Positions 10,299 to 64,000 of a stretch of 64,000 bases of DNA are shown in pieces. Position 1 is the stretch's first letter, and each line of letters starts with the position of its first letter. This stretch comes from Thermoleophilia bacterium. GTDB taxonomy: Bacteria > Actinomycetota > Thermoleophilia > Gaiellales > Gaiellaceae. The notes below the pieces were generated by a model. That model did not search any database. It saw only the letters and a list, made by a program, of their open reading frames with translations, and was not told the origin of the DNA. The translations under genes were made by a program, and so were the position numbers. The stretch spans positions 1 to 64,000 of the forward strand of contig JAHDVS010000010.1 in assembly GCA_023382435.1 (NCBI GenBank), read 5' to 3'.

Positions 10299-10301
10299 CG
10301 C

Positions 10302-10874: not shown

Positions 10875-10944
10875 GGGGTACCCGCGTCATCGGCAGGGCG
10901 GGCGCGAACCTGATGACTGTGGCCCTTCCGAGGGAGTGACCGGG

Positions 10945-11799: not shown

Positions 11800-11904
11800 C
11801 TCCGGGGATACGGGGCCAACACCGCCCCAGCTATCAGACCAGAGCGGCCCCGGCGCCGCAACGAAGGTTCCGTCAGGTTTTCGTGAAGCTTGTGTGAGGA
11901 CGCG

Positions 11905-12282: not shown

Positions 12283-12377
12283 GTAGCCACGCTAGCGCCC
12301 GTCCCGGACGGTGCGGTCGGGCTCAACTTCTTCCTCGTGGCGCCGATCACATGCACGGATGAGCTCGAACGCGGACA

Positions 12378-12895: not shown

Positions 12896-12896
12896 G

Positions 12897-14258: not shown

Positions 14259-14306
14259 GGGCTACAGCGTAGGCGCCGGCCCGGTACCGGGCGCGAGGCC
14301 GGGCCG

Positions 14307-15404: not shown

Positions 15405-15594
15405 TCGACGCCCGCCTTTCTCGTTACCGCTGAAACACGCTGCTCGCTTTAACGGAAAGAGCCCGCGAGATCGCCCGATCCCCGGCTCACAGGTGGGCGG
15501 CAGTGTACACCAGGCCAGGCGGGGGCGAAGGGCGCGGTCCTGGGCAGAATTGACCCCTTCGCGACGAATCTGCGGCGTGCCCCTCGCGCCCGGA

Positions 15595-15624
15595 TTGGCA
15601 GGTTTCCGCCCGGACGCGTACTCT
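15595..15624 (+). promoter_or_regulatory. Candidate sigma-70 promoter for the ECF sigma gene
   Basis: TTGGCA at 15595-15600 and TACTCT at 15619-15624 are separated by 18 bp, an acceptable housekeeping promoter reading toward the ECF gene. It lies inside the 15405-15714 interval between the two divergent sigma genes. Elsewhere in that interval I see only the ribosome-binding region of sigA and GC-rich DNA without recognisable structure. Confidence 0.35.
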
Positions 15625-15714
15625 TCATCGTGGGCGTCTTCGCTCGTGGGGCGCCCGACCAGGGATGACGACCCGCGAGTACCCACAGCAGACGACCCGA
15701 ACCGCGAGGCGCCG

Positions 15715-17109: not shown

Positions 17110-17150
17110 GCCGCCGGCCCGCCGACCGCCGCAGGGGGGGCAGCTGACCG

Positions 17151-17978
17151 ATGCCCGAGCTCCCCGAGATCGAGGCCCTGCGCCGCTCGCTCGAGGGACC
17201 GGTCGCACGGACAGCGGTCGAGCGAGCGGGCCCGACACACGTGGCCACCCTGAAGACGTTCGACCCGCCCCTGCACGCGCTGGAGGGGCTGCAGCTCGCG
17301 GGCGCGCGCAGGCGCGGGAAGCATCTCCTCTTCCCAGCGAGCTCGGCTGACCTCGTCCTCCACGTCCATCTGCTGAGCGCGGGGCGACTCGTGTACGTTC
17401 GGGCGGGTGGCAGGCTGCCCGGCGCGCCGGCGTTTCGGCTGCGCTTTGCCGATGGCGGCGAGCTCGTCCTCACGGAGCGCGGCTCGCGCCGGCGCGCACG
17501 GGTGGGCCTCTACCGCACCGGGGAGATCGAGGCGGAGCTCGAGCATCTCGGCCCGGACGCGCTCGGGATCGGCCCGGAACGCCTCGCTGAGATCCTGGCC
17601 GTCGCACCGCGGCGCCTCCACCCGCTGCTCCGCGACCAGCGCGCCCTGGCCGGGATCGGCCGTGCCTGGGCGAGCGAGATCCTGCACCGGGCCGGGCTGT
17701 CCCCGTTCGCGCTGTCCACCAGCCTCGAGCGCCGGGCCGTCGAGCGGCTCGCCGCCGCGATCGACTCCGAGCTCGGGCGCGGGCTCGAGCTGAGGGAGCG
17801 AGGCCTCCGCGATGCGAAGGTCTACCGGGTCCACGGGCGTGCGGGCGAGCCATGCCCGACCTGCGCGACGACGCTGGCACGGGTCGCGTTCGCGGAGCAC
17901 ACGATCGCGTACTGCCCAGCCTGCCAGACCGGTGGCCGCGTCCTGGCCGACCGCCGCCTCTCGCGGCTTCTACGCTGA
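17151..17978 (+). CDS. Fpg/Nei-family DNA glycosylase
   Basis: 275-aa bifunctional base-excision glycosylase/AP lyase that removes oxidised bases. The N-terminal MPELPEIEALRR supplies the catalytic Pro2 and Glu3. A conserved Lys in RRRGKHLLF is at the expected beta-turn position. A helix-two-turn-helix segment (DQRALAGIGRAWASEILHRA) and a C-terminal zinc finger (CPTC at ~240 and CPAC at ~260) are present. The exact substrate class (formamidopyrimidine versus oxidised pyrimidines) is not decidable by eye, although GIGRAWASEILH is typical of actinobacterial Nei/Fpg hybrids. It starts 41 bp after the ECF gene. Confidence 0.9.
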   Translation: MPELPEIEALRRSLEGPVARTAVERAGPTHVATLKTFDPPLHALEGLQLAGARRRGKHLLFPASSADLVLHVHLLSAGRLVYVRAGGRLPGAPAFRLRFADGGELVLTERGSRRRARVGLYRTGEIEAELEHLGPDALGIGPERLAEILAVAPRRLHPLLRDQRALAGIGRAWASEILHRAGLSPFALSTSLERRAVERLAAAIDSELGRGLELRERGLRDAKVYRVHGRAGEPCPTCATTLARVAFAEHTIAYCPACQTGGRVLADRRLSRLLR

Positions 17979-18065
17979 GTCCCCCGCCGAGACCGCCGAC
18001 CCCGCACGGTCAGCATGGGAACGAATCGGGCACTTTCAGCTAGCGTTCGTCCCGTGGGGGAGCCT

Positions 18066-19034
18066 GTGACTTTCGGGCACGACCTCCAGGCCTCGCCGCC
18101 CGACGTGCGGCTCAGCCTCTCGCGCGCGGGCGTGACGAACGTCCAGAAGGCGGTGCGGATGCGCCACGGTGACGACGAGGCGCTCGTGGCCGCGACGATC
18201 GACTGCTACGTCGACCTCGATCCGGAGCAGAAGGGCGTCCACATGTCGCGCTTCCCGGAGCTGTTCGAGGAGGCGATCGACGAGGTCGTCATGGGTGAGC
18301 AGCTGCTCGTCGAGCAGCTCGCCGAGCACATCGCACGGCACATCCTGGGCCGTCAGCGGGCGCTTCGGGCCGAGGTGAAGATCGCGGCCCGCTACCCGCT
18401 CGAGCGGACGACGCCCGTGACCGGGCTACGTACGCAGGCGCTGGTCACGCTGATCGGCCACGCGGCAGCGTCGCCGACCGGGACGCGGCGAGCGATCGGC
18501 GTCGAGGCCACCGGGATCACAGCCTGCCCGTGCGCCCAGGGGCTCGTCCGAGAGCGCGCCGCCGAGCGGCTCGGTGAGGCCGGGTTCGGTGGCGGGGAGG
18601 TCGAGCGGATCCTCGGCCTCGTGCCGCTGGCGACCCACAATCAGCGCGGTCGTGGCACGCTGGTTGTCGGCACCGGGAGCCGCCTGCGCGGCGAGGAGCT
18701 CGTCGAGATCGTCGAGCGCTCGATGAGCTCCCCGATCTTCGAGTTGCTCAAGCGCGCCGACGAGCTGTTCGTGGTCGAGCATGCGCACCTCCAGCCGCGC
18801 TTCGTCGAAGACGTGGTACGCCACATGCTGCGAGGCGTGCTGGACGTCTACAGCGACGTGCTCGAGGACGGCGATTTCGTGCGCGCCCGCCAGGTGAACT
18901 TCGAGACGATCCACGACCACGACGTGATCGCCGAGCGCTCGGCGACCGTCGGGGAGCTGCGGCACGAGCTCGCAACCGGCGAGCGCGCTCCGCGCACGAC
19001 CGAACTCAGAGACTGGCTGCAGAACGGCGCCTGA
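18066..19034 (+). CDS. GTP cyclohydrolase MptA/FolE2 type (GCYH-IB)
   Basis: About 322 aa. Type IB GTP cyclohydrolase converting GTP to a dihydroneopterin (cyclic) phosphate, the first pterin/folate step. Seen: SLSRAGVTNVQKAV, HMSRFPELFEEAIDEVV, EATGITACPCAQG with the metal-binding Cys, and HNQRGRGTL. Length and CPCAQ motif resemble archaeal MptA more than proteobacterial FolE2. Start is ambiguous: GTG 18066 has GGGGGAG just upstream, while GTG 18054 and ATG 18015 are in frame. Its 3' end overlaps convergent plsY by 29 bp. A PTR1-like SDR and thyX lie close by, suggesting a folate/thymidylate neighbourhood. Confidence 0.85.
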   Translation: MTFGHDLQASPPDVRLSLSRAGVTNVQKAVRMRHGDDEALVAATIDCYVDLDPEQKGVHMSRFPELFEEAIDEVVMGEQLLVEQLAEHIARHILGRQRALRAEVKIAARYPLERTTPVTGLRTQALVTLIGHAAASPTGTRRAIGVEATGITACPCAQGLVRERAAERLGEAGFGGGEVERILGLVPLATHNQRGRGTLVVGTGSRLRGEELVEIVERSMSSPIFELLKRADELFVVEHAHLQPRFVEDVVRHMLRGVLDVYSDVLEDGDFVRARQVNFETIHDHDVIAERSATVGELRHELATGERAPRTTELRDWLQNGA

Positions 19035-19632
19035 GAGCGCGCGAGAACGAGATGGTCGATCGGCGCTCCTCCCCGTGGAGCAGGCGGCGGACATTCGAGC
19101 GGTGGAGCACGGCGATCGCCAGCCCCGCTCCGATCGTGAAGCCGAGCACGGGCCACGACGCGTGGAAGAGGAGCGCGAACGCGGGCAACGACGCCCCGGA
19201 GCAAACCGACGCGACGGACGCGTAGCGGCTGGCGAGGAACACCAGGACCCAGAGCGCGCACGCGCACAGGCCCGCTGCCGGGGCGACCGCGAGCAGGACG
19301 CCGCCGGTCGTGGCAACCACCTTGCCCCCGCGCCGAAACCCGAGAAACAGCGGCCGCCAGTGGCCGGCGAGCGCGGCCGTCCCCGCGAGCACGCCGGTGA
19401 GCTCGTCCGCGAGGTAGCGACCGAGGAGCGCCGCCGCGACGCCCTTGAGGACGTCGAGCAGGAGCGCGGGCAGCCCGAGCCGCCAGCCGAAGCTGCGCCA
19501 CACGTTCGACGCCCCGACGTTGCCGCTGCCGGACTCCCGGATGTCGGCGCCCCGAAACACGCGCGGGAGCCAGTAGGCGAACGGCATGCTGCCGAGCACG
19601 TAGCCGGCCGCGATCAGCAGTCCCTGCACCAT
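19006..19632 (-). CDS. plsY: Glycerol-3-phosphate acyltransferase PlsY
   Basis: 208-aa inner-membrane acyltransferase that uses acyl-phosphate to make lysophosphatidic acid in phospholipid synthesis. It has five or so hydrophobic spans. The PlsY signatures are GSMPFAYWLPR, the SGSGNVGASNVWR loop, KGGKV-type GFRRGGKVVATTGG, and HRSNVRRLLHGEE near the C-terminus. The C-terminal tail overlaps the 3' end of the convergent cyclohydrolase gene. Confidence 0.92.
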   Translation of the reverse strand: MVQGLLIAAGYVLGSMPFAYWLPRVFRGADIRESGSGNVGASNVWRSFGWRLGLPALLLDVLKGVAAALLGRYLADELTGVLAGTAALAGHWRPLFLGFRRGGKVVATTGGVLLAVAPAAGLCACALWVLVFLASRYASVASVCSGASLPAFALLFHASWPVLGFTIGAGLAIAVLHRSNVRRLLHGEERRSTISFSRALRRRSAASL

Positions 19633-19653
19633 GTGGCTGCTACCCCGGGTGCG

Positions 19654-20274
19654 TCAGGCCCGGATGCCGTACCTCTCGATCCAGTCGTTGACGACGCCCC
19701 AGTCGATGTTCGCGAAGAACGCGTCGATGTAGGAGCCGCGGTCGGTCTGGTAGTCGAGGAAGTAGGCGTGCTCGTAGACGTCGAGCGCGACGAGCGGGGT
19801 CGCGTTCCAGATCGGGTAGGCGTTCTGCGCGTCGCCGACGTGGTTGAAGAGCCGCCCCTCGTCCCAGTCGTACACCGTGAACGCCCAGCCGCGGCCGGCC
19901 ATTCCGGTGGCCTTGAGGTCGTCGCGCCAGGCCGCGACGGAGCCGAAATCGCGCTCGAGCAGCGCCCGCGAGGCTCCGACCGGGTCGCCGCCGCCGCCGC
20001 CGAGGTGCGCGAAGTAGATCTCGTGGTTCTTGACGCCGCCGATCGCGAACGTCAGCTCCACCTTGAGGGCGCGGATCTCCGAGTACACCTGGTTGGCGGC
20101 GCCCGCATCGACCTCCCCGAGCCGGTGCAGGATCTCGTTGCGCTTGTTCACGTAGCCCTGGTAGAGCCGATGATGCGCCTCGACCGAGGCCCGGGAGATG
20201 CCATCGAGCTCGAGCAGTTCCGGTCTGAGCGGCCGCGGTGCGATCTCCTCGACGCCGTACGCCAGTGTCGCCAT
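19654..20274 (-). CDS. Fe/Mn superoxide dismutase
   Basis: 206-aa cytoplasmic Fe/Mn-family superoxide dismutase. The first metal ligand lies in ISRASVEAHHRLYQGYVNK (~residue 34). The second is in VKNHEIYFAHL (~residue 83), and the Asp/His pair is in DVYEHAYFLDYQ (~residues 165-169). GDPVGASRALLERDFGS matches the inter-domain region. The N-terminal half is somewhat divergent, so Fe versus Mn preference is not clear. It is 21 bp from plsY. The presence of SOD argues for oxygen exposure of the host. Confidence 0.93.
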   Translation of the reverse strand: MATLAYGVEEIAPRPLRPELLELDGISRASVEAHHRLYQGYVNKRNEILHRLGEVDAGAANQVYSEIRALKVELTFAIGGVKNHEIYFAHLGGGGGDPVGASRALLERDFGSVAAWRDDLKATGMAGRGWAFTVYDWDEGRLFNHVGDAQNAYPIWNATPLVALDVYEHAYFLDYQTDRGSYIDAFFANIDWGVVNDWIERYGIRA

Positions 20275-20360
20275 TCCCTCCTCCTTCCTCTTCGTGCCGG
20301 AGGGAGCTTAGCGGTCTGGGCCCGCTGCGACACCGGCGGCTGCCCGCGTATGGTTGGGGC

Positions 20361-21023
20361 GTGACCGGACTCGCAGCGCTCGTCACCGGGGGCACCGGGC
20401 GCGTCGGCGGCGCGATCGCGCGGCGGCTCGAGACGGAGGGCTACCGCGTCATGGCCGCGGGCCGCGGCGACGGCGACCTGACCCGTGCGGACGGAGCGCG
20501 CGCGCTCGTCGGGCTCGCGGTGGAGGAGCTGGGCGGGCTCGACCTGCTCGTCAACGCCGCCGCCGACGGGTTCTGGCCGAGATCGGTCGGCGAGGTGACC
20601 GAGGCCGACTGGGATGCCGCGCTCGGGGCCGCCGCAAAGGGAAGCTTCTTCGTCACGCAGGCCGCGGCGCCGCACCTGCGCCGCTCCGAGCTCGGGCTGG
20701 TCGTGATGATCGAGGACGTCGCGTCGTTCCAGCCCTGGCCCTCGTTCGCCCCGCACTGCGCGGCGAAGGCAGCGCAGGCGATGCTGACCCGCGTGCTCGC
20801 TCGCGCGCTCGGCCCCGAGGTGCGGGTCTGCGGGATCGCCCCCGGCTCGGTCGCCGTCGCCCCCGAAGAGGAGGATCGTCGCGCCGCCGAGACCCTCCTC
20901 GCGCGCATCGGAACACCCGACGACGTCGCCGACGCTGTCCTCTACCTCGCCGGCGCCCGCTTCGTGACCGGGTCGACGATCCTCGTCGACGGGGGTCGCC
21001 TGATCGCGCCGCCGCCGCGGTGA
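20361..21023 (+). CDS. Short-chain dehydrogenase, pteridine-reductase-like, with altered active site
   Basis: 220-aa SDR from GTG 20361. The Rossmann TGGTGRVGGAIARRL and the NAAAD structural motif are present. The position of the catalytic YxxxK reads HCAAK, with His in place of Tyr. About a dozen residues earlier an Asp (VMIEDVASFQPWP) sits where most SDRs have Ser. An Asp at that place is typical of PTR1/FolM pteridine reductases (D-Y-K), so I read this as a PTR1-like protein with a Y-to-H change. It lies between the MptA/FolE2 and thyX genes. ThyX organisms often lack classical DHFR, so a folate/pterin reduction role is attractive but unproven. Confidence 0.7.
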   Translation: MTGLAALVTGGTGRVGGAIARRLETEGYRVMAAGRGDGDLTRADGARALVGLAVEELGGLDLLVNAAADGFWPRSVGEVTEADWDAALGAAAKGSFFVTQAAAPHLRRSELGLVVMIEDVASFQPWPSFAPHCAAKAAQAMLTRVLARALGPEVRVCGIAPGSVAVAPEEEDRRAAETLLARIGTPDDVADAVLYLAGARFVTGSTILVDGGRLIAPPPR

Positions 21024-47777: not shown

Positions 47778-48209
47778 TCAGGGGAGTCGGCGCGACGCCC
47801 ACTCGGCGCCGAGGCGCTCGAGCTCGCCCGCGTCGAGCACGTTCTCGGCCATCGGATAGAGCACCTGCTCCTCCTTGGCGAAGTGATCGCGCGCGAGCTG
47901 GGCGAGGCGGGTCGCGATCGTCCGGCCCTCGGTCGGACCCTCCACCTCCTGGAGGCGCTCGAGCACACCCTCGATCTCGTCATGCTCGAGCCGCATCACC
48001 GCGAGCGGGCCCATCTCGCCGCCAATCTGCTCCTCGAGCGGCACGAACAGGAGCTCGTCCTCGATCCGAGCGTGCGAGGCCAACCCGGCCGCCAGGATCG
48101 CCGCGGCCGCGCGCATCTCCTCCGCGGTGGCGAAGGACGCCTCGGCGATCCGATCGAGCCCCGGGTAGATGACCGCGTGCTCGCCGAGCAGAGCGTCGGT
48201 GATCTTCAC
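47778..48209 (-). CDS. Hemerythrin HHE-domain protein
   Basis: 143-aa four-helix protein of the HHE cation-binding family. Di-iron ligand candidates: LGEHAVIYPGLD, SHARIEDELLFVPLE, RLEHDEIEGVL, and DHFAKEEQVLYPM. These give the H...HxxxE...HxxxE...H-pattern. Role may be O2, NO or iron sensing and storage. Its GTG start overlaps the SDR stop (GTGA), so it belongs to the tail of the minus-strand aromatic operon region. An O2-binding protein near an oxygen-sensitive reductase is suggestive. Confidence 0.8.
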   Translation of the reverse strand: MKITDALLGEHAVIYPGLDRIAEASFATAEEMRAAAAILAAGLASHARIEDELLFVPLEEQIGGEMGPLAVMRLEHDEIEGVLERLQEVEGPTEGRTIATRLAQLARDHFAKEEQVLYPMAENVLDAGELERLGAEWASRRLP

Positions 48210-48952
48210 ACCATCACCAGCCCGCCGCCGACCGACAGCGTCTCGCCGGTCGTGAACGAGGCGCGGCTCGAGGCGAGGAACAGTGCCGCCTCTGCCACCT
48301 CCTCCGGCCGCGCAAGCCGCCTGAGCGGCGTCGCGGCGACGATCGCGTCGATCAGCTTCTCGTTCCCGTCGGCGATCATCCCCCGCAGGAGCGGCGTGTC
48401 GGTGAGACCAGGAGCGACCACGTTCACACGGATACCGTACCTGGCGACCTCGCGCGCGAGCGCCTTCGAGAACGCGATCACGGCCCCCTTCGTACCCGAG
48501 TAGACGGCCTCGCCCGACGAGCCCGCCCTCCCGGCCTCGGAGGCGACGTTGACGATCGCCCCGCCGCCGCGCTCGATCAGGTGCGGCAGCGCCCCGTGCG
48601 TGACCGCGAGCAGCCCGCGGTAGTTGATGCCGATCACCCGGTCCCAGTGCGCCTCGTCCGTCTTCGCGAACGGCATGATCCGGTCCCAGCCGGCTGCGTT
48701 GACGACGACGTCGAGGCCGCCAAGCTCGGACGCGGCGCGTTCGACGCCGGCGCGCACGCTGACCGCGTCGGTCACGTCCATCCCGACAGCGACGGCGCCG
48801 CCGCCGGCCTCGGCTGCCGCCGCCTCCGCGCCGGCCACGTTCAGGTCGCAGATGGCGACGCGCGCCCCCGCGGCCGCGAACGCGAGCGCGGTCGCGCGGC
48901 CGATGCCGCTCGCGGCACCTGTGACGAGCGCCGCTCGATCCTGGAACTCCAC
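48206..48952 (-). CDS. SDR-family dehydrogenase, BadH/IpdF-like candidate
   Basis: 248-aa classical SDR. NAD(P)-binding TGAASGIGRATALAF; Asp after strand 2 (CDLNVAG) suggests NAD preference; NAAG; catalytic Ser in VNVASEAG and YSGTK (Tyr-Lys). C-terminal GETLSVGGGLVMV. Near the benzoyl-CoA reductase operon this is a candidate hydroxyacyl-CoA dehydrogenase, in the role of R. palustris BadH. SDR sequence does not settle the substrate. It follows the CoA-transferase-fold genes after a 74-bp gap with a hairpin. Confidence 0.8.
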   Translation of the reverse strand: MEFQDRAALVTGAASGIGRATALAFAAAGARVAICDLNVAGAEAAAAEAGGGAVAVGMDVTDAVSVRAGVERAASELGGLDVVVNAAGWDRIMPFAKTDEAHWDRVIGINYRGLLAVTHGALPHLIERGGGAIVNVASEAGRAGSSGEAVYSGTKGAVIAFSKALAREVARYGIRVNVVAPGLTDTPLLRGMIADGNEKLIDAIVAATPLRRLARPEEVAEAALFLASSRASFTTGETLSVGGGLVMV

Positions 48953-48980: not shown

Positions 48981-49017
48981 GGACATGTCCCGGGGCCTGG
49001 CCCCCGGACATGTCCGC
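48981..49017. repeat. 37-nt hairpin with repeated GGACATGTCC palindromes
   Basis: GGACATGTCC occurs at 48982-48991 and 49007-49016. The whole 37 nt folds as 17-nt arms with one mismatch around a CTG loop. It lies between the CoA-transferase-fold gene stop (49027) and the SDR start (48952) on the same strand, so it may reduce read-through or stabilise the upstream mRNA. It may also be a REP-type repeat. Confidence 0.55.
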
Positions 49018-49026
49018 CACGGTCAG

Positions 49027-49749
49027 TCAGGCCAGGACCCCCGCCGGGTCGAGCCGCGCCAACACCGCCAGCTCCGCGGCCGTCGGCGGCGGCGTCTCCG
49101 GCACCGGCTCCGGCACCGGCAGCTCGAAGCCCGTCCGGGCGCGCACCTCGTCCGCGCTGACGCCGGGGTGGACGCTTGCGAGCCGCAGCCGCCGCGTCCC
49201 CGGGTCGGGCTCCATGGTGGCGAGCGGGGTCACGACCAGTGCGACCGTGTCTCCCGCGCCGCTGACGAAGTCGACGCGCTCGACGAACGTGCGCGGATTA
49301 TGGGCGAGCGTGAAGATCACCGTGCGGCCGACCGCGGGCAGGAACGGCAGGCCGACCGACCCGGGCCCGCGCAGCTTCGGACGCGCGGGGTCGCCGACGC
49401 CGACGAGGTTGCAGTTGCCACTGGCGTCGATCTGGAGGCCGCCCGCGCAGAAGACGTCGAGCGCGCCGCCACGGCCCTCGAGCAGCACCACCTCGTGTAG
49501 CGGCAACGTCACGGGCCCGCCGCGCAGCTCGGGATCGCAGGACTGCGAGAGCAGCCCCGCGGGCGCCGGGTTGACGGTGCCGCTCCCGCCGACGACGTAC
49601 GAGAGCGAGGGGGCGTGCAGCGCCTTCGCCAGACGGCAGGCGGCGAGCGGCAGCGCCGGAACGGCGCCCATCACGACCACCTCGCCGTCGCGAAACGCGC
49701 GCGCCAGCACGCACGCCATCAGCTGCTGCGGGCTGTAGGGCGCGCTCAC
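49027..49749 (-). CDS. CoA-transferase-fold beta subunit, IpdB-like
   Basis: 240 aa, family I CoA-transferase beta fold. Layout resembles actinobacterial IpdB: FVERVDFVSGAG in the middle and ASVHPGVSADEVRARTGFE near the end, with a PTAAELAVLARLDP tail. Where family I CoA transferases carry the catalytic Glu of the beta subunit, the sequence reads SYVVGGSGTVNPAP, without Glu. This argues against a normal CoA transfer and for an IpdAB-type hydrolytic ring opening, but by eye only. GTG start overlaps the alpha-subunit stop (GTGA). Last gene of the seven-gene operon. Confidence 0.72.
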   Translation of the reverse strand: MSAPYSPQQLMACVLARAFRDGEVVVMGAVPALPLAACRLAKALHAPSLSYVVGGSGTVNPAPAGLLSQSCDPELRGGPVTLPLHEVVLLEGRGGALDVFCAGGLQIDASGNCNLVGVGDPARPKLRGPGSVGLPFLPAVGRTVIFTLAHNPRTFVERVDFVSGAGDTVALVVTPLATMEPDPGTRRLRLASVHPGVSADEVRARTGFELPVPEPVPETPPPTAAELAVLARLDPAGVLA

Positions 49750-50516
49750 AACCTGGCCTCCTCGAGGTAGGCGCGCAGCGCCGCCTCGTCGCGCGGGTAG
49801 AACCCGGGCGAGGCGGTCGGGGCGCAGCCGCCCGGGGCCACGACCACGGCGGAGACGAGGAACGCGGGCAGCGTCGTGCCCGCCTCGCGAGCCGCGATCG
49901 ACTCGACGGGAACGAGGCGCTCGACCTGGACGACGAGAGCGCGCGCGGCAAGCGCCATCACCCGGTCGGTGAACGGGACGCGCCCGAACGCGACGTTCCC
50001 CTCCTCGTCGGCCTCCGCGCAGGCGATCAGGGCGACGTCAGGGCGCAGCGCGCGGATCGCCCAGCAGCGCTCCCCCGTGAACGGATCCTCGACCTCCCGG
50101 TACAGCTCCGGGCAGGAGCGGGGCACGTCGCTGCGCCCGATCGCCGGCGGCAGCGGCACGAACGGCAGCCCGCCCGCGCCGGCGTAGAGCGCGTGCGTCA
50201 GCCCGCCCTCGTCCGACTCGAGCAGGCGGATCGTCCCCTCCTCGACGGCGCGGCGGAATCGTGGCGCGAGGCCGAGATCCTCGAAGCCGACGTAGGGTGC
50301 GACCAGCTCCTCGACGAGCCCCTCGCCGATCAGGAGGTCGGCCTGGATCGACGTCGAGGGGCTCGTCACGAGCCGCCCGATCCCGACGCGCTGGCGCGCG
50401 AGCTCGCGCACGAGCGCCATCGGTGCCGCCGTCGCGTGCATCCCACCGACGGCCACGACGCCGCCGGCCGGAACGAGCCCGGCGACCGCCCGCTCGGGGT
50501 CGAGGAAGCGGGTCAA
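49746..50516 (-). CDS. CoA-transferase-fold alpha subunit, IpdA/GctA-like
   Basis: 256-aa partner of the following gene. GGVVAVGGMHATAAPMALVREL is the N-terminal CoA-transferase alpha glycine-rich loop; PFVPLPPAIGRSDVP, VALIACAEADEEGNV and the PRDEAALRAYLEEA C-terminus match IpdA/GctA-type subunits. The start is a TTG overlapping the crotonase stop (TTGA), indicating coupling. In M. tuberculosis the homologous IpdAB opens a steroid ring; here the neighbouring ring reductase makes a related role on an alicyclic CoA ester plausible. Confidence 0.75.
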   Translation of the reverse strand: MTRFLDPERAVAGLVPAGGVVAVGGMHATAAPMALVRELARQRVGIGRLVTSPSTSIQADLLIGEGLVEELVAPYVGFEDLGLAPRFRRAVEEGTIRLLESDEGGLTHALYAGAGGLPFVPLPPAIGRSDVPRSCPELYREVEDPFTGERCWAIRALRPDVALIACAEADEEGNVAFGRVPFTDRVMALAARALVVQVERLVPVESIAAREAGTTLPAFLVSAVVVAPGGCAPTASPGFYPRDEAALRAYLEEARL

Positions 50517-51478
50517 AGCTCGGCGCCGCAGGCCCCGCAGAACGCCATGCCCTCGGGCAGGCCTTTCGCGCCGCACGCGCCGCACTCGAGCACGGGCGGG
50601 CCCCACACGAATTCGGAGGAGCCGCCGTCGCGGGCCAGCTCGCGCAGGCGCCGGTAGCCGGGCTCTCGCTTCTCGACGAACGCGGTCATACCCTCCCACG
50701 GCTCGTAGCTCGCGAAGTGCAAGGCCAGCCACTCGCGGGCGTGGCCGATCGTGCCATGCCAGGCGAGATCCTTCCAGAAGTTGACCTGCTGGCGCGTGTA
50801 GCGCAGGCACTCGGGGAACTTGTCGATCAACTTCTCGCACAGCCCGTCCACGCACGCGTCGAGCTCGTCCCGCGGCACGACCCGGTTCACGAGCCCCCAT
50901 TCGAGCGCCTGCTGCGCCGTGATCGGCTCGCACATGAGCAGCATCTCCCGAGCGCGGCGATCGCCGACCATGATCGGCAGCCACTGGGTGGCGCCGCCGG
51001 CGGCGACCGAGCCCACGCGCGTGCCGACCTGGCGGATCGTGATCTCGTCCACTGCCACGGCGAGGTCGCACGCCATGTTCCACTCGTTGCCGCCGCCGGC
51101 GACGATCCCGTTCAGGCGGGCGATCGTCGGCTTGCCGAGGTTGCGCAACGCCTCGTGGGCCTCCGCGAACAGGCCCATGTACTTCCAGTAGTCGCGCGGC
51201 CGCCGCGTGTACTCGCCCGCGTACTCCTTGACGTCGCCGCCGGTGCAGAACGCCTTCTCGCCGGCGCCGGTGAGGACGAGCACCGCGACTCCGTCGTCGT
51301 GGGCGGCGTCGCGGAACGCCTCCCGCAGCTCGTTCAGCGTGTGCGTCGTGTAGGCGTTGTAGGCGTGCGGCCGGTTGATCGTCACCCGCGCGACCCAGTC
51401 TCGCTTCTCGTAGACGATGTCGGCGAAGCCGAAGTCCTCCGGCGGGCGTCCGGCGAACGGGCGTCCAGCCTCATCCAT
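50513..51478 (-). CDS. BadI/MenB-like crotonase with C-terminal zinc ribbon
   Basis: 321-aa crotonase. Residues 1-~290: ARVTINRPHAYNAYTTHTLN, the GAGEKAFCTGGD loop (~71-82) characteristic of the MenB/BadI branch, IARLNGIVAGGGNEWNMACD oxyanion region, and VGTRVGSVAAGGATQWLP. MenB/BadI-branch enzymes form or cleave carbocycles; BadI opens 2-ketocyclohexane-carboxyl-CoA. The last ~24 residues hold two CxxC pairs (CGACGAKGLPEGMAFCGACG), a zinc ribbon unusual for this family. It lies 14 bp after the bcrD-like gene. Hydratase or ring-hydrolase activity cannot be decided by eye. Confidence 0.8.
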   Translation of the reverse strand: MDEAGRPFAGRPPEDFGFADIVYEKRDWVARVTINRPHAYNAYTTHTLNELREAFRDAAHDDGVAVLVLTGAGEKAFCTGGDVKEYAGEYTRRPRDYWKYMGLFAEAHEALRNLGKPTIARLNGIVAGGGNEWNMACDLAVAVDEITIRQVGTRVGSVAAGGATQWLPIMVGDRRAREMLLMCEPITAQQALEWGLVNRVVPRDELDACVDGLCEKLIDKFPECLRYTRQQVNFWKDLAWHGTIGHAREWLALHFASYEPWEGMTAFVEKREPGYRRLRELARDGGSSEFVWGPPVLECGACGAKGLPEGMAFCGACGAEL

Positions 51479-51492
51479 GCGACTCTCCTCTC

Positions 51493-52296
51493 TCAGGCGA
51501 CCTGGGCGAGCTTGCGCTGCCGCCGGGCGGCGAGCAGGGCGGCGCCGATCGCCCCGGCGAAGACGCCGAGGTCGTCGTCGCCGACCAGGAACGTGCAGTC
51601 GAGCATCGACTCGAGCTCGCGCTTCATCAGGGGCACGCGCGTGAGGCCCCCGGTGAGGGCGAACTCCGGCTCGGGCTTGACCCGCTTGACCAGCTGGCCG
51701 GCCCGCCCGGCGAGGGCGACGACGGCGCCGCCGCAGATGTCCTCCGCGCTGCGCCCGCCGGCGAGGTGGTTGATCACCTCGGACTCGGCGAAGACGGTGC
51801 AGACGCTCGAGACCTCGGCCGGGTCGATCGCGTCGTCGGCGAGCCGGGGGATGTCCACGGCCTCGAAGCCCATGTAGCGGACGGTCTTCTCGAGGAACGC
51901 CCCCGAGCCGGCCGCGCACTTGTCGTTGAGACGGAACGCCCTGACGCGCCCGGTCTCGTCGAGGCGGATCGCCTTCGCGGTCTGGCCGCCGATGTCGAGC
52001 ACGGTGCGGACGGTCGGGAAGACCGTGTGCACGGCCCAGGCGTGGCAGGTCAGCTCGGTGACCGCGAGGTCGCGGAACGGCACCTGGTAGCGGCCGCTGC
52101 CGGTCGCCGCGATGTAGCCGGCCGCCTCGCGGGACAGCCCGCCGGCGAGCAGCGCCTCGGCCAGCGCCCGCTCGCCCGCGCGTGCAAAGTTGTAGCCCGT
52201 CGGACACGAGGCGCGGGCGACGACCGCGCCGTCCGCGTCCGCGAGGACGGCCTTCGTGTAGGCCGACCCGACGTCGATCCCGGCCGTCAGGCTCAT
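51493..52296 (-). CDS. bcrD: Class I benzoyl-CoA reductase ATPase subunit, BcrD/BzdQ-like
   Basis: 267-aa BadF/BcrA/BcrD-type ATPase of the ASKHA fold. Phosphate-1 loop GIDVGSAYTKAVLAD; phosphate-2 LDIGGQTAKAIRLDE. The ligands of the inter-subunit [4Fe-4S] cluster are C127 (NDKCAAGSG) and C166 (SSVCTVFAESE). With the A subunit it would hydrolyse ATP to drive low-potential electrons into the catalytic pair. It is the shorter, ~30-kDa type as in the Azoarcus Bzd enzyme. Overlaps the preceding gene by 4 bp (ATGA). Confidence 0.87.
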   Translation of the reverse strand: MSLTAGIDVGSAYTKAVLADADGAVVARASCPTGYNFARAGERALAEALLAGGLSREAAGYIAATGSGRYQVPFRDLAVTELTCHAWAVHTVFPTVRTVLDIGGQTAKAIRLDETGRVRAFRLNDKCAAGSGAFLEKTVRYMGFEAVDIPRLADDAIDPAEVSSVCTVFAESEVINHLAGGRSAEDICGGAVVALAGRAGQLVKRVKPEPEFALTGGLTRVPLMKRELESMLDCTFLVGDDDLGVFAGAIGAALLAARRQRKLAQVA

Positions 52297-53117
52297 GGCA
52301 GCACACCTCCCGAAGCGCCGGCCGCGGCCCGCGTGAGCGCCCGGTCGAGCGCGTAGAGCGAGGCGCCGATCGCGCCGCAGTAGTGCGACTCCTCGCTGAC
52401 GTTGATCGGGCAGTCCGTCAGCTCCTCGAGCAGCTTGACCATGGCCGCGTTGCGCGAGACGCCACCCGTGAACGTGATCTCCGGCTCGATCCCGACCCGG
52501 CGCAGCAGCGAGACCGAGCGGGAGGCGATCGCGACGTGGACGCCGAGCAGCACGTCCTCCATCTTGCGCCCGAGCGCCAGCCAGCCGAGGATCTCGGACT
52601 CCGCGAACACGGTGCAGGTGGTGGTCATCTTGACCGGGTTCTTTGCGGTCAGGGCGAGCGGCCCCAGGTCTCCGAGCGGCAGCTCGAGCGCCTGGGAGGC
52701 CGCGCCGAGGAAGCGACCGGTCCCGGCCGAGCATTTGTCGTTCATGCAGAAGTCGAGCACTTGGCCGTCCCCGCCGACCCGGATCGCTTTCGTGTCCTGG
52801 CCGCCGACGTCGAGGACGCTCGTCGTGTTCGGGAACAGGAAGACGGCGCCCCGCGCGTGGCAGGAGATCTCCGTCACCTGCGTCTCCCCGAACTCGACCC
52901 GGTAGCGGCCGTAGCCGGTGCCGACGACCGAGGCGACGTCGCGCTCCTCCGCCCCCGCGTCGACCACGGCGAGGCTGAACGCCTCCTGCGCCGCCTCGGT
53001 CAGGCGCGCGCCCGTCTCGATCAGCGAACGCCCCACCACTTTCGGCTCGCCGTCCATGACGACCGCCTTTGTCTGTGTGGAGCCGACATCGACCCCTGCG
53101 ACCAGCACTCCGCTCAC
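52293..53117 (-). CDS. bcrA: Class I benzoyl-CoA reductase ATPase subunit, BcrA/BzdP-like
   Basis: 274-aa second ATPase subunit. Phosphate-1 GVDVGSTQTKAVVMDG; phosphate-2 LDVGGQDTKAIRV; [4Fe-4S] Cys C129 (CMNDKCSAGTG) and C168 (TTTCTVFAESEI). It is clearly a paralogue of the D-like subunit. The presence of two non-identical ATPases separates benzoyl-CoA reductases from 2-hydroxyacyl-CoA dehydratase systems, which use one homodimeric activator. GTG start overlaps the BcrB stop (GTGA). Confidence 0.87.
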   Translation of the reverse strand: MSGVLVAGVDVGSTQTKAVVMDGEPKVVGRSLIETGARLTEAAQEAFSLAVVDAGAEERDVASVVGTGYGRYRVEFGETQVTEISCHARGAVFLFPNTTSVLDVGGQDTKAIRVGGDGQVLDFCMNDKCSAGTGRFLGAASQALELPLGDLGPLALTAKNPVKMTTTCTVFAESEILGWLALGRKMEDVLLGVHVAIASRSVSLLRRVGIEPEITFTGGVSRNAAMVKLLEELTDCPINVSEESHYCGAIGASLYALDRALTRAAAGASGGVLP

Positions 53118-54442
53118 CTCCTCGCCGCTGCCTTGCGGCTCGCCAGCGCCTCGAAGAAGGCGTCGATGCGGTTCTTCATCTGGGCGTCCGACCAGAGCCT
53201 CGCGTCCACGAGGTCGGACTGGATGAAGAGCCCGGGGATGTCGTTCGTGCGCATCTGCCACTCGCGCTCGTCCGGCAGGCCGGTCGAGACGGTGCGGCAG
53301 GATTTGATCCCGTGGAAGCAGATCCCGTCGATGTCCCACTCGCGCACGATCCTCGCCTGCCAGTCCTGGGAGAAGAAGATCCCCGAGAAGCTCTGCTGGG
53401 CGCTCCAGAGGATCTGCTCGGCCATGCTCTCGATCGGCCGCTCGAGCTCGTAACGGATCCCGCGGTCGATGCCGCCGCCGGCGAAGGACATGTACTCGGA
53501 GTGGGCGAAGACACCGCCCCACGAGTGGAACAGCTCGAGGAAGCGGCGGAAGTGCGAGTAGCAGGCGGTGCCGATCAGGAGCAGCCGGTACTTCTCGTCC
53601 GGGATCGCGCCCATCCCGAGCCGCACCCGCTCGCGCAGCTCGTCGCGCGCGAGCCGCATGAACGCGGTGCCGCGCGAGTCGCCACGGTACGCGTTCGCGA
53701 TGCCCATGTAGTTGAGCCCGTCGAGCATGGCGTCGAACGGGGCCGGGTGGTGCTTGTTCTCCGCGACCACCTCGTCGTAGAGACCGGCGAGCGCGTTGAC
53801 CTCGCCCATCACCTCGCGCAGCCGGTCGAGGTCGAGCGTCTTGCCGGTGATCCGCTCGCAGAGCGCGATCAGCTCGCGCAGCTGGCCCTCGACGTAGCGG
53901 CGGTCGCGCTCGAACTCCTCGCTGCCGGGGAGGACGCTCCCGCCCGTGCCCCGCCAGCCGGGGAGGTCGAGGACGAAGACCGGGCAGCCGTACATCCGCT
54001 CCCAGATCTCGGACCACTTGATGTAGGTGTTGCACGTGTTCGGCGAGACGACCAGGGCCGGCCGGGGCAGCTTCCCGGACGGATGGTTGCGCCCGGTCAG
54101 GTGCAGGCCGACGTCGACCTTCACGTAACCGCAGATGTCCGGGGAGTAGCCGTAGTCCTCGGCGGCGACGAGCATCTCCATCTGCTTGCCCCGGACCGCG
54201 GTCTGGAGCGAGGTGATCTCGGGGAAGCTCATCGGCAGGTCGAAGCAGCGCAGGATCTCGGCGATCGACCCCATCACGAACACGTTCGCGACGGGCCGCC
54301 CCTCGGCGTCCGCCTCGCTCATCTCCTGCCACCACGTCTCGATCAGGCCGCGGCTCTCGGCGCGGGTGGCGCCGATCAGCTCGGAGTGCGGGGCCGCCCC
54401 ATCCCCCGGCCGCTTCCGCTCGGCAACTTTCTGCTCGGCCAC
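53114..54442 (-). CDS. bcrB: Class I benzoyl-CoA reductase subunit, BcrB/BzdO-like
   Basis: 442-aa 2-hydroxyacyl-CoA-dehydratase-fold subunit. Candidate Fe-S ligands include C104 (PDICGYVKVD), C137 (SPNTCNTYIKW), and a Cys near residue 390 (HGIKSCRTVS). With BcrC it forms the catalytic heterodimer that carries out two-electron ring reduction of benzoyl-CoA to a cyclic dienoyl-CoA. Length fits BcrB/BzdO (~440). Start ATG 16 bp after the BcrC stop. Confidence 0.87.
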   Translation of the reverse strand: MAEQKVAERKRPGDGAAPHSELIGATRAESRGLIETWWQEMSEADAEGRPVANVFVMGSIAEILRCFDLPMSFPEITSLQTAVRGKQMEMLVAAEDYGYSPDICGYVKVDVGLHLTGRNHPSGKLPRPALVVSPNTCNTYIKWSEIWERMYGCPVFVLDLPGWRGTGGSVLPGSEEFERDRRYVEGQLRELIALCERITGKTLDLDRLREVMGEVNALAGLYDEVVAENKHHPAPFDAMLDGLNYMGIANAYRGDSRGTAFMRLARDELRERVRLGMGAIPDEKYRLLLIGTACYSHFRRFLELFHSWGGVFAHSEYMSFAGGGIDRGIRYELERPIESMAEQILWSAQQSFSGIFFSQDWQARIVREWDIDGICFHGIKSCRTVSTGLPDEREWQMRTNDIPGLFIQSDLVDARLWSDAQMKNRIDAFFEALASRKAAARR

Positions 54443-54458: not shown

Positions 54459-55622
54459 TCAGGCGAACTCGAACAGCAGGGACTCGGCGAAGGTCTCGAC
54501 CTCCATGCGCACCTGCTCGAACACGTTCGTCTTCTCCTCGAACTCCATCACGAGGTGCGGGATCCCCGCATCGTCGAGGGCGCGGCTGTAGCTCACCTGC
54601 TCCTCGAGCCCGGGCTCGCACATCTTCGCGGCCGCCACGATCGCCGCCTCCGCGCCGGCGGCGCGGATCCGCGCGAGCAGCATCTCCTCCTTCAGCTTCT
54701 CGGGGTCGCGCTGCACCGGGCTGTAGCTCGACGTCTCGATGTAGGCGCGAGCGAGGCTCGCGTACGGGTTGTCGCCGGCGGGGACGTCCTCGGTCAGCCA
54801 GCGCAGTCCGATCAGGAAGTCGTCGTCGACGACGTAGCAGGCGTCCTGGATCACCGCGAGCATCTCGAGCGGCGGCTGCTCGCAGAAGCCGCCCTCGAAG
54901 ACGACGCGGATCTTGTCCTGGGACTTCGCGTCCCTCGCCTCGACGAGGGGCAGCGCCCGGCGTAGAAGCTCGTTGTGCTCCTCGCGGGGCATCACCGTCC
55001 CCGCCCGGGTGAGCAGGTAGGCCTCGACGGTGGAGATGAGCCACGGGGTCTCCCGCTTGATCCGGTAGAGCTCGCGCAGGAGGCGACGGTTCTCGTTGAA
55101 GAGCTCGATCGAGGCTCGCAGGGCGTCGTCGGTGAGCTCGCGGCCCGCGACCTCCTCGATCACGCCGGCGATCCGCCGGTACTCGCTCTCGAGGTACTCG
55201 GGCGCGTAGGCGGAGCGCACGTTGTGCGGCAGGTAGAGGACCTGGCAGGGGATGTCCGGGAGGTTGCGCGCCCAGACCCCGCAGGAGTGGCGCGCCGCGT
55301 CGCAGATCGGGTGCGTGACGAACATGGACAGGAAGTCGGCGCGGCCGGCCAGTACGGACTCGAGCGAGCTGCGAATGATCGAGCACACGAACGCGGCGAA
55401 GCGCGCGTCGGCCTGGCGCACCTGGAGTGCCGAGCTCGCGCCGGCCAGCTTGATCGGCAGCATCCCGGCCGCGTGGGCGAGCTCCTCGGGGAAGTAGACC
55501 TGGAAGTGGCCGAGCACCTTGCCGCCCGGGTTCTGCTCGAGCCAGCGGCGAGCGGCCGGGTAGTCGAGATCCTCGACCAGCTCGCGGGTCTCGTGAATCA
55601 GCTGCGTCAGGTCATCTGTCAT
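54459..55622 (-). CDS. bcrC: Class I benzoyl-CoA reductase subunit, BcrC/BzdN-like
   Basis: 387-aa 2-hydroxyacyl-CoA-dehydratase-fold subunit, first gene of the operon. FPEELAHAAGMLPIKLAG at the N-terminus is a family hallmark; C80 (FVCSIIRS), C107 (THPICDAARHSCGVW, also C114) are cluster or substrate-site candidates. GGFCEQPP and CEPGLEEQ occur in the second half. ATG 55622 preferred; an in-frame GTG at 55631 adds three residues. An inverted repeat overlaps this start, so a divergent regulator could block transcription here. Confidence 0.87.
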   Translation of the reverse strand: MTDDLTQLIHETRELVEDLDYPAARRWLEQNPGGKVLGHFQVYFPEELAHAAGMLPIKLAGASSALQVRQADARFAAFVCSIIRSSLESVLAGRADFLSMFVTHPICDAARHSCGVWARNLPDIPCQVLYLPHNVRSAYAPEYLESEYRRIAGVIEEVAGRELTDDALRASIELFNENRRLLRELYRIKRETPWLISTVEAYLLTRAGTVMPREEHNELLRRALPLVEARDAKSQDKIRVVFEGGFCEQPPLEMLAVIQDACYVVDDDFLIGLRWLTEDVPAGDNPYASLARAYIETSSYSPVQRDPEKLKEEMLLARIRAAGAEAAIVAAAKMCEPGLEEQVSYSRALDDAGIPHLVMEFEEKTNVFEQVRMEVETFAESLLFEFA

Positions 55623-55656
55623 AGATAACACCTAACCTTGGTAGACTGTTACCTAT
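55621..55656. promoter_or_regulatory. Imperfect inverted repeat, candidate PaaX-family operator
   Basis: atagataacacctaacc at 55621-55637 and its imperfect inverse ggtagactgttacctat at 55640-55656 match at 12 of 17 positions, with ATAGnTAACA matching at 9 of 10. It sits in an unusually AT-rich gap between bcrC and the regulator gene, overlapping the bcrC start and the -35 of the regulator promoter. Confidence 0.5.
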
Positions 55657-61511: not shown

Positions 61512-63215
61512 TCAGCCCGCCCCGTCCGCGCGCCGAAGGATCTCGACCACGCCGGCGTTCCCGTCGACCCGCACGAGGTCACCGTTTCCGATCGAGTTCG
61601 TCGCGTTCCACGTCCCCACCACGGCCGGGAGGCCGTACTCGCGGGCCGCGATCGCGGCGTGCGTGAGCATGCCGCCCGTGTCGGTGACGACCCCTGCGAT
61701 CTTCAGGAACAGGGGCGTCCAGGCGGTGCTCGTGTACGGGCAGACGAGGATCTCCCCCGCCTGGAGGTTGGGGAACTCCTCGAAGCTGAGGATCACCCGA
61801 GCCGGCCCCTCGACCACACCGGCCGAGCCGGGGAAGCCCTCGAGACGCTCCACCACCTCCTTCTCCCCCTTGGGGTGCAGCACCTCGTCGATGATCCCGA
61901 AGACCTTGATCGCGATCGGATCGGTCATCGTCTGCGGGACGTTCCCGACCGTGAGCGGAGCGTCCGAGACGGCCGCCTGCTCCCAGGACTCACGCCGCTC
62001 CTGCACGAGCGGCGGTACGAGAGCCAGGTGGTGGTACGTCCCGATCTCCTCGTCTCGCGCAAGATCGGTCAGCACCTCGACGAGCTCGTGGTAGGTGAGG
62101 AAGAACACGTCCTCGGCCTGCTCGAGCAGGCCGAAGCGCTGGAGCCTGTGGCCGCAGGCGACGAGCGCGTAGTGGAGCGCCGCCGTCGAGCCCTGGTCGA
62201 TGTAGAAGCCGTGGTCCTCCTGGTAGGCGTACACCTCCTGGGCGACCTTCAGCAGCCGCTCGAACGTCGGCCGGTCCTCGGTCGAGACGCGCTCCGCGAA
62301 AGCCGCGATCGCCTCCTCCCGCTGGCGGACGACCGCCTCGCGGGCCTCGAGCAGATCCCACCCCCCGTCCATGCGGGCGAAGTAGCTCTCGATCGTCTCG
62401 AGCACCGGCTTCGGGTCCTCCCGCCAGGTGGGGAACATCACGTCCAGGTGGGCGGCCGAGATCCGGTTGCCGTGCGTCTGGAGGAAGCTGTCGAGCAGTT
62501 CGAGCCACTCGCGCCCCCCGGGGCTCTCCCTGAGCACGTCCGCCAGCGCGGCGGGCGGGGTGGCGCGAATCGCCTCCTCGAGGCCGGTCTCCCTCGCGGC
62601 CCTCGCCAGGTCCCAGAGCCCCTCGTCGGTCTGCGCGGGCGTGGAGCTGAAGCCCTTCAGCAGCTCGACGAAATCCTTCTCCTCGAGGCCGTAGCCCTGG
62701 CAGAAGGCCTCGAACGCGAGGTAGATCGCGTCCGCGGGGTACATGAGGGCGAAGTGGATCTCCCAGTGGCGGCGGTTCGCCTCCTCGGCCCGCTTCAGGT
62801 GCTCGAGCAGGTGGGGCGTCGTCAGCCGGCTCGCGTCCACGGCCGCGAGCGAGCTCAGGTTCGCGATCACCTCGGAGATGTAGCCGCGGTAGTACTCGCC
62901 CCAGTGGTCCTTGCACCGCTCGACCAGCTCTCCGAACACCTCCGCCCGCCGCCCCACCTCCTCCGGGTCGTCGATCAGGGCGAACCCGAGGTAGACCCGG
63001 CCCTTGTGCAGCTTCACGTGCGCGCCCTTGGAGGGCGGAAGCTGGGTCTGGGCGGCAGCGACGTGGTAGCCCCACGCGTGATGCTTCTGGATCGTCGTCA
63101 TCCCCATCGGGGAGATCGGATAGGGCTGGTGGAGGTCGTCCCGGAACCAGAAGATCTCCCGGTCGGACTCCGGCCGCAGTGTCCGAAGCGCGCTGATGCT
63201 CCTGTCCTGGGGCAT
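61512..63215 (-). CDS. PEP-utilising-enzyme mobile (phosphohistidine) domain protein
   Basis: 567 aa from ATG 63215. Only the C-terminal ~90 residues are recognisable: the swivelling phosphohistidine domain of PEP synthase/PPDK, with His519 in GGMLTHAAIAAREYGLPAVV. The first ~430 residues are mainly helical, with many Trp/Tyr and no ATP-grasp or PEP-binding barrel motif. The layout resembles the 70-kDa phosphohistidine component of phenylphosphate synthase. The ATP-grasp partner (PpsB) is not in the window. It lies between an amidohydrolase and an importer, all on the same strand, in a likely aromatic operon. A domain swap with another acceptor is possible. Confidence 0.72.
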   Translation of the reverse strand: MPQDRSISALRTLRPESDREIFWFRDDLHQPYPISPMGMTTIQKHHAWGYHVAAAQTQLPPSKGAHVKLHKGRVYLGFALIDDPEEVGRRAEVFGELVERCKDHWGEYYRGYISEVIANLSSLAAVDASRLTTPHLLEHLKRAEEANRRHWEIHFALMYPADAIYLAFEAFCQGYGLEEKDFVELLKGFSSTPAQTDEGLWDLARAARETGLEEAIRATPPAALADVLRESPGGREWLELLDSFLQTHGNRISAAHLDVMFPTWREDPKPVLETIESYFARMDGGWDLLEAREAVVRQREEAIAAFAERVSTEDRPTFERLLKVAQEVYAYQEDHGFYIDQGSTAALHYALVACGHRLQRFGLLEQAEDVFFLTYHELVEVLTDLARDEEIGTYHHLALVPPLVQERRESWEQAAVSDAPLTVGNVPQTMTDPIAIKVFGIIDEVLHPKGEKEVVERLEGFPGSAGVVEGPARVILSFEEFPNLQAGEILVCPYTSTAWTPLFLKIAGVVTDTGGMLTHAAIAAREYGLPAVVGTWNATNSIGNGDLVRVDGNAGVVEILRRADGAG

Positions 63216-63237
63216 GCGGGCCTCCTCGGGTCGTCGG

Positions 63238-64000
63238 CTAGCTCCGCTGGAACGGCGGGAGCTTGAACAGAGCCTCTGCGTTGCCGCCGAGCATGGCATC
63301 CGTCTCCGCCTGCGGCAACCCCAGCGCCGCTCCGAGCTCCCTGACCGCGCCGATCGCGCCTTCCGGGTCGCCCACGCGGTGCGCGTAGTCGGAGCCGACG
63401 ACGAGATGATGCGGCCCGACCCATTCGAGCGCGCACTTCATCGCCGGCTGGTAGAACGAGGTCGTGTCGGGCCAGACCCGGGTCTGGTAGACGACGTCCG
63501 GCGTCTCCGACAGCTCGAGCCCCCACTCCTTCGCGTAGCCCTTCCAGGACGCCCTCATCCGCTGGACCATGTAGGGGACGATGCCGCCGAGGTGGCCGTG
63601 TACGGCCTTCAACTTCGGGTGCTTGTCGAAGACGCCGTTGAAGATCAGGCTGATCAGGGACACGGACGTGTCGACCGTGTAGCCGTAGAGCTGGTAGGGG
63701 ATGCGCAGCATCTGCATCAGCTCCGACGTCCAGGGCATCGTCGGGTGCATCAGGAACGGCAACTCGGCGTCGTTCGCGATCGCGAAGATCGGGTCGAACT
63801 TCTCGAGGAAGAGCGGCTCCCCGTTCACGTTCGAGAACATCTGGATGCCGACGACGCCGAGCTCGCTGCGGCAGCGCTCGAGCTCCTGCGCCGCCTCGTC
63901 GGGCGCCTGGTAGGGCAGCGCAGCCAGCGCGTAGAAGCGCCCGGGGTGGTTGCGGACGGCCTCGGCGTAGGCGTCGTTGATCCGCTTCGCCCAGTAGACA
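63238..64000 (-). CDS. Amidohydrolase-2 family (ACMSD-like) protein, 5' end cut by window
   Basis: About 254 C-terminal residues of a metal-dependent amidohydrolase of the ACMSD / gamma-resorcylate decarboxylase family. Seen: GRFYALAALPYQAPDEAAQE, FLMHPTMPW (metal His), HPKLKAVHGHLGGIVPYMVQ (metal His), and HHLVVGSDYAHRVGDPEGA (catalytic Asp), in the typical order. The family decarboxylates, or hydrolyses, aromatic and ring-cleavage carboxylates. It precedes the phosphohistidine-domain gene by 22 bp. The N-terminus, including the first HxH, lies outside the window. Confidence 0.82.
   Translation of the reverse strand, partial: VYWAKRINDAYAEAVRNHPGRFYALAALPYQAPDEAAQELERCRSELGVVGIQMFSNVNGEPLFLEKFDPIFAIANDAELPFLMHPTMPWTSELMQMLRIPYQLYGYTVDTSVSLISLIFNGVFDKHPKLKAVHGHLGGIVPYMVQRMRASWKGYAKEWGLELSETPDVVYQTRVWPDTTSFYQPAMKCALEWVGPHHLVVGSDYAHRVGDPEGAIGAVRELGAALGLPQAETDAMLGGNAEALFKLPPFQRS

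Follow-up and report, generated by a model that had tools for sequence, protein, structure and literature searches.

A CoA-transferase-fold pair with an IpdAB-type active site alternates with Dch homologues at benzoyl-CoA reductase-like loci and may take the place of the hydratase

Anaerobic degradation of aromatic compounds has the benzoyl-CoA pathway as its central route, and the steps that Dch (cyclohexa-1,5-diene-1-carboxyl-CoA hydratase), Had and Oah catalyze in this pathway have been treated as fixed. A 64,000-nucleotide stretch of a Thermoleophilia bacterium genome (contig JAHDVS010000010.1, positions 1 to 64,000; hereafter, the window) carries a locus that can be compared with this scheme. 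As in the Dch/Had/Oah pathway of Thauera (bcr) and Azoarcus (bzd), genes for a four-subunit ATP-dependent reductase-like enzyme and for an Oah-like crotonase are present, and the ligase, reductase, dehydrogenase and hydrolase slots are all filled. Unlike the Thauera and Azoarcus systems, the window has no Dch and instead an IpdAB-like pair of genes; a short-chain dehydrogenase (SDR) stands in place of Had, the Oah-like enzyme is short and carries a zinc ribbon, and the reductase subunits score below the equivalog cut-offs. We tentatively propose that the pair is a class I CoA-transferase-fold enzyme that lacks the transferase nucleophile, has an IpdAB-type active site and replaces Dch in a variant benzoyl-CoA pathway, a reading that we favor while putting its chances a little below even.

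The closest described relatives of the pair differ from it in instructive ways. IpdAB, the COCHEA-CoA hydrolase of steroid ring cleavage in Mycobacterium and Rhodococcus, shares with it the fold, a beta-subunit Gly at the site of the nucleophilic Glu, the catalytic Glu of the alpha subunit, and a setting of alicyclic CoA esters with a crotonase and an SDR adjoining. Unlike IpdAB, the pair lies in a separate clade and is tied to benzoyl-CoA-reductase genes rather than to steroid genes. AibAB, the 3-methylglutaconyl-CoA decarboxylase of Myxococcus, has the same fold and has also lost the transferase Glu, but it has an alpha Gly, a beta Cys and another gene context. Glutaconate CoA-transferase (Gct) of Acidaminococcus has the same fold as well, but retains beta Glu54 where the pair has Gly. 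The genes in question are the following.

51478-50513, minus strand: crotonase (crotonase A); Pfam ECH_1, E=9e-54
50516-49746, minus strand, TTG start: IpdA-like alpha subunit of class I CoA-transferase fold; Pfam CoA_trans, E=1.9e-21; Glu103 (= IpdA Glu105)
49749-49027, minus strand, GTG start: IpdB-like beta subunit; Pfam CoA_trans, E=1.5e-12; Gly54-Gly55 at the CoA-transferase Glu position

The first-pass annotation of this DNA had placed a crotonase and a two-subunit CoA-transferase-fold protein at 49027-51478, and both are there, on the minus strand. It had also described them as coupled by overlaps to the reductase genes. This holds for the crotonase and the two subunits, which overlap by 4 nt each (crotonase stop and alpha start, TTGA; alpha stop and beta start, GTGA), but not for the junction of reductase and crotonase, where the last reductase gene and the crotonase are 14 nt apart, with a GGAG-like ribosome site in between. 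The Pfam matches, together with recurrence in other bacterial and archaeal genomes, rule out chance for the three-gene set, and the link between reductase and pair that had been drawn from the window is real and recurs.

The evidence for an exchange with Dch comes from the distribution of the pair. A scan of a genome collection found 196 relatives of crotonase A in uncultured bacteria and archaea, many of them adjoining reductase genes. The genome counts given here refer to the best 80 of these relatives, all of the genomes having been found via crotonase A; they belong to Acidobacteriota, Gemmatimonadota, Chloroflexota, Asgard archaea, Thermoplasmatota, Actinomycetota and other phyla. The pair was scored as present at 160 bits or more to the window alpha subunit, and Dch was scored with TIGR03189, for which a simple E-value cut is imperfect. 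By these measures the pair is present in 20 of the 80 genomes, where the best TIGR03189 score is at most 109.4 bits, whereas 53 of the 60 genomes without the pair reach at least 113.8 bits, most of these exceeding 135 (Fisher p=2.5e-13, uncorrected for kinship). At least nine changes of partner state fall on the crotonase A tree, where independent pairs never show the pair and Dch traits going in the same direction.

Two gene sets are seen in the neighborhood of the crotonase and reductase genes. One comprises a second crotonase that is nearest Dch (TIGR03189, 173-202 bits in the two tested) together with an alcohol dehydrogenase of the zinc type, whose nearest model is Had (TIGR03201, 243-250 bits); in Lokiarchaeota this set accompanies a Bzd-type reductase above cut-off and thus makes up the established Dch/Had/Oah complement. 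The other comprises the IpdAB-like pair and an SDR, a Had or both, and no Dch-like gene was found at the loci bearing the pair. The cleanest comparison, a minimal pair for the alternation of hydratase and CoA-transferase-fold genes, is between the window and locus L026. The order in the window is bcrCBAD-crotA-ipdAB-SDR-hemerythrin on the minus strand; in L026 it is crotB-bcrCBAD-crotA-SDR-hemerythrin, without the pair, and the crotB heading that operon is a hydratase with both catalytic Glu residues. The two loci are otherwise closely related (identity of 77% for crotA, 69% for the SDR and 63-80% for the Bcr proteins). Because pair and hydratase alternate while the Oah-like crotonase is kept, we place the pair at the hydration step; the Dch role assigned to it would follow from this mutual exclusion.

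The identity of the crotonase bears directly on that placement. It had been called a BadI/MenB-type enzyme, a label that we abandon, as its active site lacks the MenB/BadI Asp and almost no genome has another Oah-like protein. Its profile scores are 206.8 bits for BadI (cut-off 467.6), 195.4 for Oah and 182.3 for MenB (cut-off 342.7), all below cut-off and those for BadI and Oah far below, and it is both the best Oah-scoring protein of its genome and the only Oah-like one there. The active site consists of GGGNE, with one Glu, and GSVAAGGATQWLP, and lacks the second hydratase Glu; the motif GSVAAGG is without the Asp of the MenB-like GSFDGG. The family has 71 invariant columns and GSVAAGGATQWLP is nearly fixed across it. 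A C-terminal CxxC..CxxC zinc ribbon (50513-50600 in the window) is fused in 82 of 82 members, all of which also carry the active-site motif. Of 42 genomes tested, nearly all have crotonase A as their sole Oah-like protein; three have two matches. Oah and Dch assignments rest here on profile scores and not on reference sequences; when plasmids were searched for a named Oah, only BadI, MenB and generic hydratases were returned. None of the conserved crotonase A positions tracks the partner state (pair or Dch), and its role is therefore probably the same with either partner. It seems to be the only candidate for the ring-opening hydrolase.

We infer the following reactions, substrate and order of steps for the variant pathway. 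The benzoate-CoA-ligase-family enzyme would make the aryl-CoA, which the bcrCBAD-like reductase would convert to the 1,5-dienoyl-CoA. The pair would then add water to the cyclohexadienoyl-CoA, the BadH-like SDR (in archaea, a Had-type dehydrogenase) would oxidize the product to the 6-oxo compound, and crotonase A, as the sole Oah-like protein, would hydrate it and open the ring to give 3-hydroxypimeloyl-CoA. The OAH of Thauera scarcely converts the unfluorinated 1,5-dienoyl-CoA (PMC5742626), so that Dch should not be replaceable by an Oah-like enzyme on its own, and organisms without Dch should need another hydrating enzyme. The IpdAB reaction has been described as a retro-aldol hydrolysis (PMC5380842), which implies addition of water to a ring double bond before cleavage; the chemistry of the pair, if halted after water addition, would amount to hydratase activity.

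The catalytic residues of the pair fit an enzyme of the IpdAB kind. The beta subunit contains SYVVGGSGTVNP, and Gct beta Glu54 aligns to the second Gly of its Gly-Gly. The earlier claim that the beta subunit lacks the transferase Glu is thereby upheld, since alignment to GctB and AibB gives Gly-Gly, and Gly54-Gly55 is invariant in all 19 aligned beta orthologues (the window and 18 others). In IpdAB of RHA1, Gly57 of the beta subunit occupies the position where transferases carry Glu (PMC5380842). Alpha Glu103 aligns to the residue altered in the IpdAB E105A structure (6coj versus 6co6) and is invariant in 20 of 20 alpha orthologues. The key alpha and beta residues are thus Glu and Gly in the pair, Glu and Gly in IpdAB, Gln and Glu in Gct, and Gly and Cys in AibAB (beta position 56). 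The transferase pattern, a beta Glu with an alpha His or Asn, is retained by many paralogues, whether of the same genomes or of related ones.

Overall sequence and fold give another ranking. With single sequences, AibAB is the best match among solved structures, with Gct and IpdAB behind; profile comparison ranks Gct above AibAB and AibAB above IpdAB; and the AlphaFold model of the alpha subunit (pLDDT 85) matches AibA, GctA and IpdA, AibA being the best fold match (Foldseek). Identity of the pair to IpdAB is about 30%. In the alpha-subunit tree the orthologues form a separate group that does not include IpdAB (6co6/6con), the greater part of it being a starred clade of 18; constraining them to group with IpdAB costs 24.8 log-likelihood units (lnL; p-AU 0.08), which falls short of a formal rejection. 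The pair shares the residue pattern of the IpdAB active site, but the tree does not make it a member of IpdAB. The resemblance to actinobacterial IpdB noted at first pass thus stands for the catalytic residues and not for the sequence as a whole, which is nearer to AibAB and Gct. The 60 local genomes of the family yielded no close orthologue of the pair, and most IpdA-like matches in them are other CoA-transferase-fold proteins. Lokiarchaeal CoA-transferase-fold pairs at L131, L132 and L133 fall in a different clade and have an alpha Glu with a beta Gly-Asn; they constitute another transferase-dead group.

Several points weigh against a hydratase role for the pair. We know of no hydratase with the CoA-transferase fold. 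Seven genomes have neither the pair nor Dch. When only starred branches of the crotonase A tree are used, about 4-5 informative pairs are left, too few for significance (median p 0.125). The gap in score between the two states is narrow at its closest, as the pair-bearing genome G072 reaches 109 bits and the reductase-adjacent hydratase of L026 only 118 bits. The Dch-like proteins are below the TIGR03189 cut-off, and that of L026 is nearly generic, so that a generic enoyl-CoA hydratase encoded elsewhere could serve the pair-bearing genomes. Lastly, most of the genomes are draft metagenome-assembled genomes (MAGs), and absences and some taxon labels are uncertain; one such label, which possibly stems from misbinning, is that of L025, the locus nearest the window and masked over half of its length.

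Another division of labor would have the pair open the ring and crotonase A hydrate it. The known IpdAB substrate has just the scaffold that such a reaction would involve and gives the better substrate precedent (PMC5380842; structures 6co9 and 6coj), the catalytic Glu and Gly of IpdAB are conserved in the pair, and echA20, ipdA and ipdB are consecutive in the KstR2 regulon (PMC5380842, Table 1), an order matching crotonase-ipdA-ipdB in the window. However, crotonase A would have to act against its homology, as it scores with Oah and BadI and not with Dch and is without the second hydratase Glu. It is also kept, with conserved positions unchanged, beside Dch-like and Had-like genes, where only the hydrolase role remains, and the gene that is lost is that of the hydratase. 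We regard this arrangement as possible but doubtful. What remains of the ring-hydrolase role first suggested for the pair is the IpdAB signature (alpha Glu, beta Gly), whereas exclusion with Dch and retention of the Oah-like crotonase in both states point to the hydration step.

It is improbable, in our judgment, that the exclusion reflects the substrate rather than an exchange of enzymes, with the pair acting on a different, substituted ring and the Dch-less genomes degrading another aromatic compound. The reductase subunits do score below the benzoyl-CoA reductase equivalog cut-offs, and genes for an amidohydrolase and for a split PEP-synthase-like pair lie ahead of the operon. On the other hand, the reductase, crotonase and SDR of L026 are close relatives of those in the window although that locus has a hydratase and no pair, and at L032 the pair adjoins class II-like reductase genes. 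At this last locus (labelled Bacillota; 9989-20940), crotonase A and the pair flank genes for an aldehyde-ferredoxin-oxidoreductase-family protein, a ferredoxin, and Hdr-like and FlpD proteins, an arrangement that resembles a class II benzoyl-CoA reductase cluster.

We give the same low credence to an AibAB-like decarboxylase, acting for example on glutaconyl-CoA lower in the pathway. The benzoyl-CoA pathway does lead through glutaryl-CoA to glutaconyl-CoA, AibA and AibB are the best single-sequence matches in the PDB, and AibA is the best fold match; but AibAB has Gly and Cys at the key positions where the pair has Glu and Gly, and a decarboxylase would give no reason for the exclusion of Dch. 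A conventional CoA transferase, serving to activate the aromatic acid or to recycle CoA, is highly improbable despite the class I fold and a top profile score to glutaconate CoA-transferase, as the beta nucleophilic Glu is absent in all orthologues though kept in many paralogues of the same or related genomes, and the cluster already has a benzoate-CoA-ligase-family gene above its cut-off. The catalytic residues support the conclusion that the pair is not a CoA transferase; as regards the two findings named beforehand as fatal to the first-pass claim, neither a catalytic Glu on alignment nor a close kinship to characterized short-chain CoA transferases was found.

Two other placements of the pair were considered. 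Replacement of Had was rejected because archaea with the pair have Had-like genes, as does the Bacillota MAG of L032. Replacement of Oah is unsupported, the Oah-like crotonase being always kept; the sampling was via crotonase A, to which pair-bearing genomes without it are invisible.

To return to the pair as a substitute for Dch, many uncultured bacteria and archaea appear to degrade benzene rings anaerobically with a CoA-transferase-fold pair where textbook organisms use the hydratase, which would constitute a second, unrecognized version of the pathway. That an enzyme of this fold with an IpdAB-type site is a dienoyl-CoA hydratase, giving the fold a new reaction and the benzoyl-CoA pathway a second, widespread form that uses reductases of class I as well as class II-like ones, is a slightly more tentative proposal than the replacement itself. 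If it is true, the prediction of aromatic degradation from metagenomes changes, as searches for Dch would miss such organisms, and the known activities of the fold, namely CoA transfer, decarboxylation and steroid ring cleavage, are joined by another. A full-text search of the open-licence literature found no paper combining benzoyl-CoA reductase with IpdAB. The module is seen in Thermoplasmatota, Heimdallarchaeota, Dormibacterota, Actinomycetota and others, and the notion of a hybrid of proteobacterial and actinobacterial parts is accordingly not supported.

The other genes of the run are as follows.

54459..55631, minus strand: benzoyl-CoA reductase-like subunit C; TIGR02263 304.7 bits (cut-off 421), HadC 196.9; Pfam HGD-D, E=8e-71
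53114..54442, minus strand: benzoyl-CoA reductase-like subunit B; TIGR02260 214.8 bits (cut-off 486.6), HadB 127.9; Pfam HGD-D
52293..53117, minus strand: reductase activase subunit A-like (ATPase); TIGR00241 252.5 bits, above cut-off; BcrAD_BadFG
51493..52296, minus strand: reductase activase subunit D-like (ATPase); TIGR00241 192.9 bits, above cut-off; BcrAD_BadFG
48206..48952, minus strand: BadH-like SDR; TIGR03206 254.5 bits (cut-off 431); also 3' of ipdB in L030, L044, L092 and L104
47778..48209, minus strand: hemerythrin-domain protein, final gene of the run; Pfam Hemerythrin, E=4e-20; also in L026, L044, L078, L084 and L094

The reductase operon (55631-51493) thus has two HGD-D subunits and two distinct activases, which is the layout of a class I benzoyl-CoA reductase. 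Subunits A-D are below the NCBIfam benzoyl-CoA reductase equivalog cut-offs (126-305 bits versus 313-578), and the HGD-D subunits score higher with benzoyl-CoA reductase models than with those of 2-hydroxyacyl-CoA dehydratase. The genome (2.73 Mb, 79 contigs) has one further CoA-transferase pair and no further HGD-D genes outside the operon. The BadH-like SDR is the likely substitute for Had, and the hemerythrin protein adjoining the reductase genes possibly protects the reductase from oxygen.

Upstream of a Liv-type transporter, 61512-63999 and the adjoining contig region G000:C10:64275-66900 (L023) encode a mobile-domain protein of the phosphoenolpyruvate (PEP) utilizers, an amidohydrolase, a separate PPDK_N protein and the benzoate-CoA-ligase-family gene. 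The split PEP-synthase-like pair is reminiscent of phenylphosphate synthase, and a phenol-type entry route is possible. Beyond the window a second cluster (G000:C10:73954-75652, L023) codes for a PaaX-like regulator, a further Liv-type transporter, an SDR and a MenB/BadI-like crotonase that scores 341 bits against a MenB model, short of its cut-off. A strong hairpin (48981-49015) with an 11+5 bp stem (z -4.1) lies in the gap separating ipdB from the SDR gene. Its half-site has 23 copies in the genome at two or fewer mismatches, versus 2 in a reversed control, and the copies are often back-to-back pairs, as in a REP-like dispersed element.
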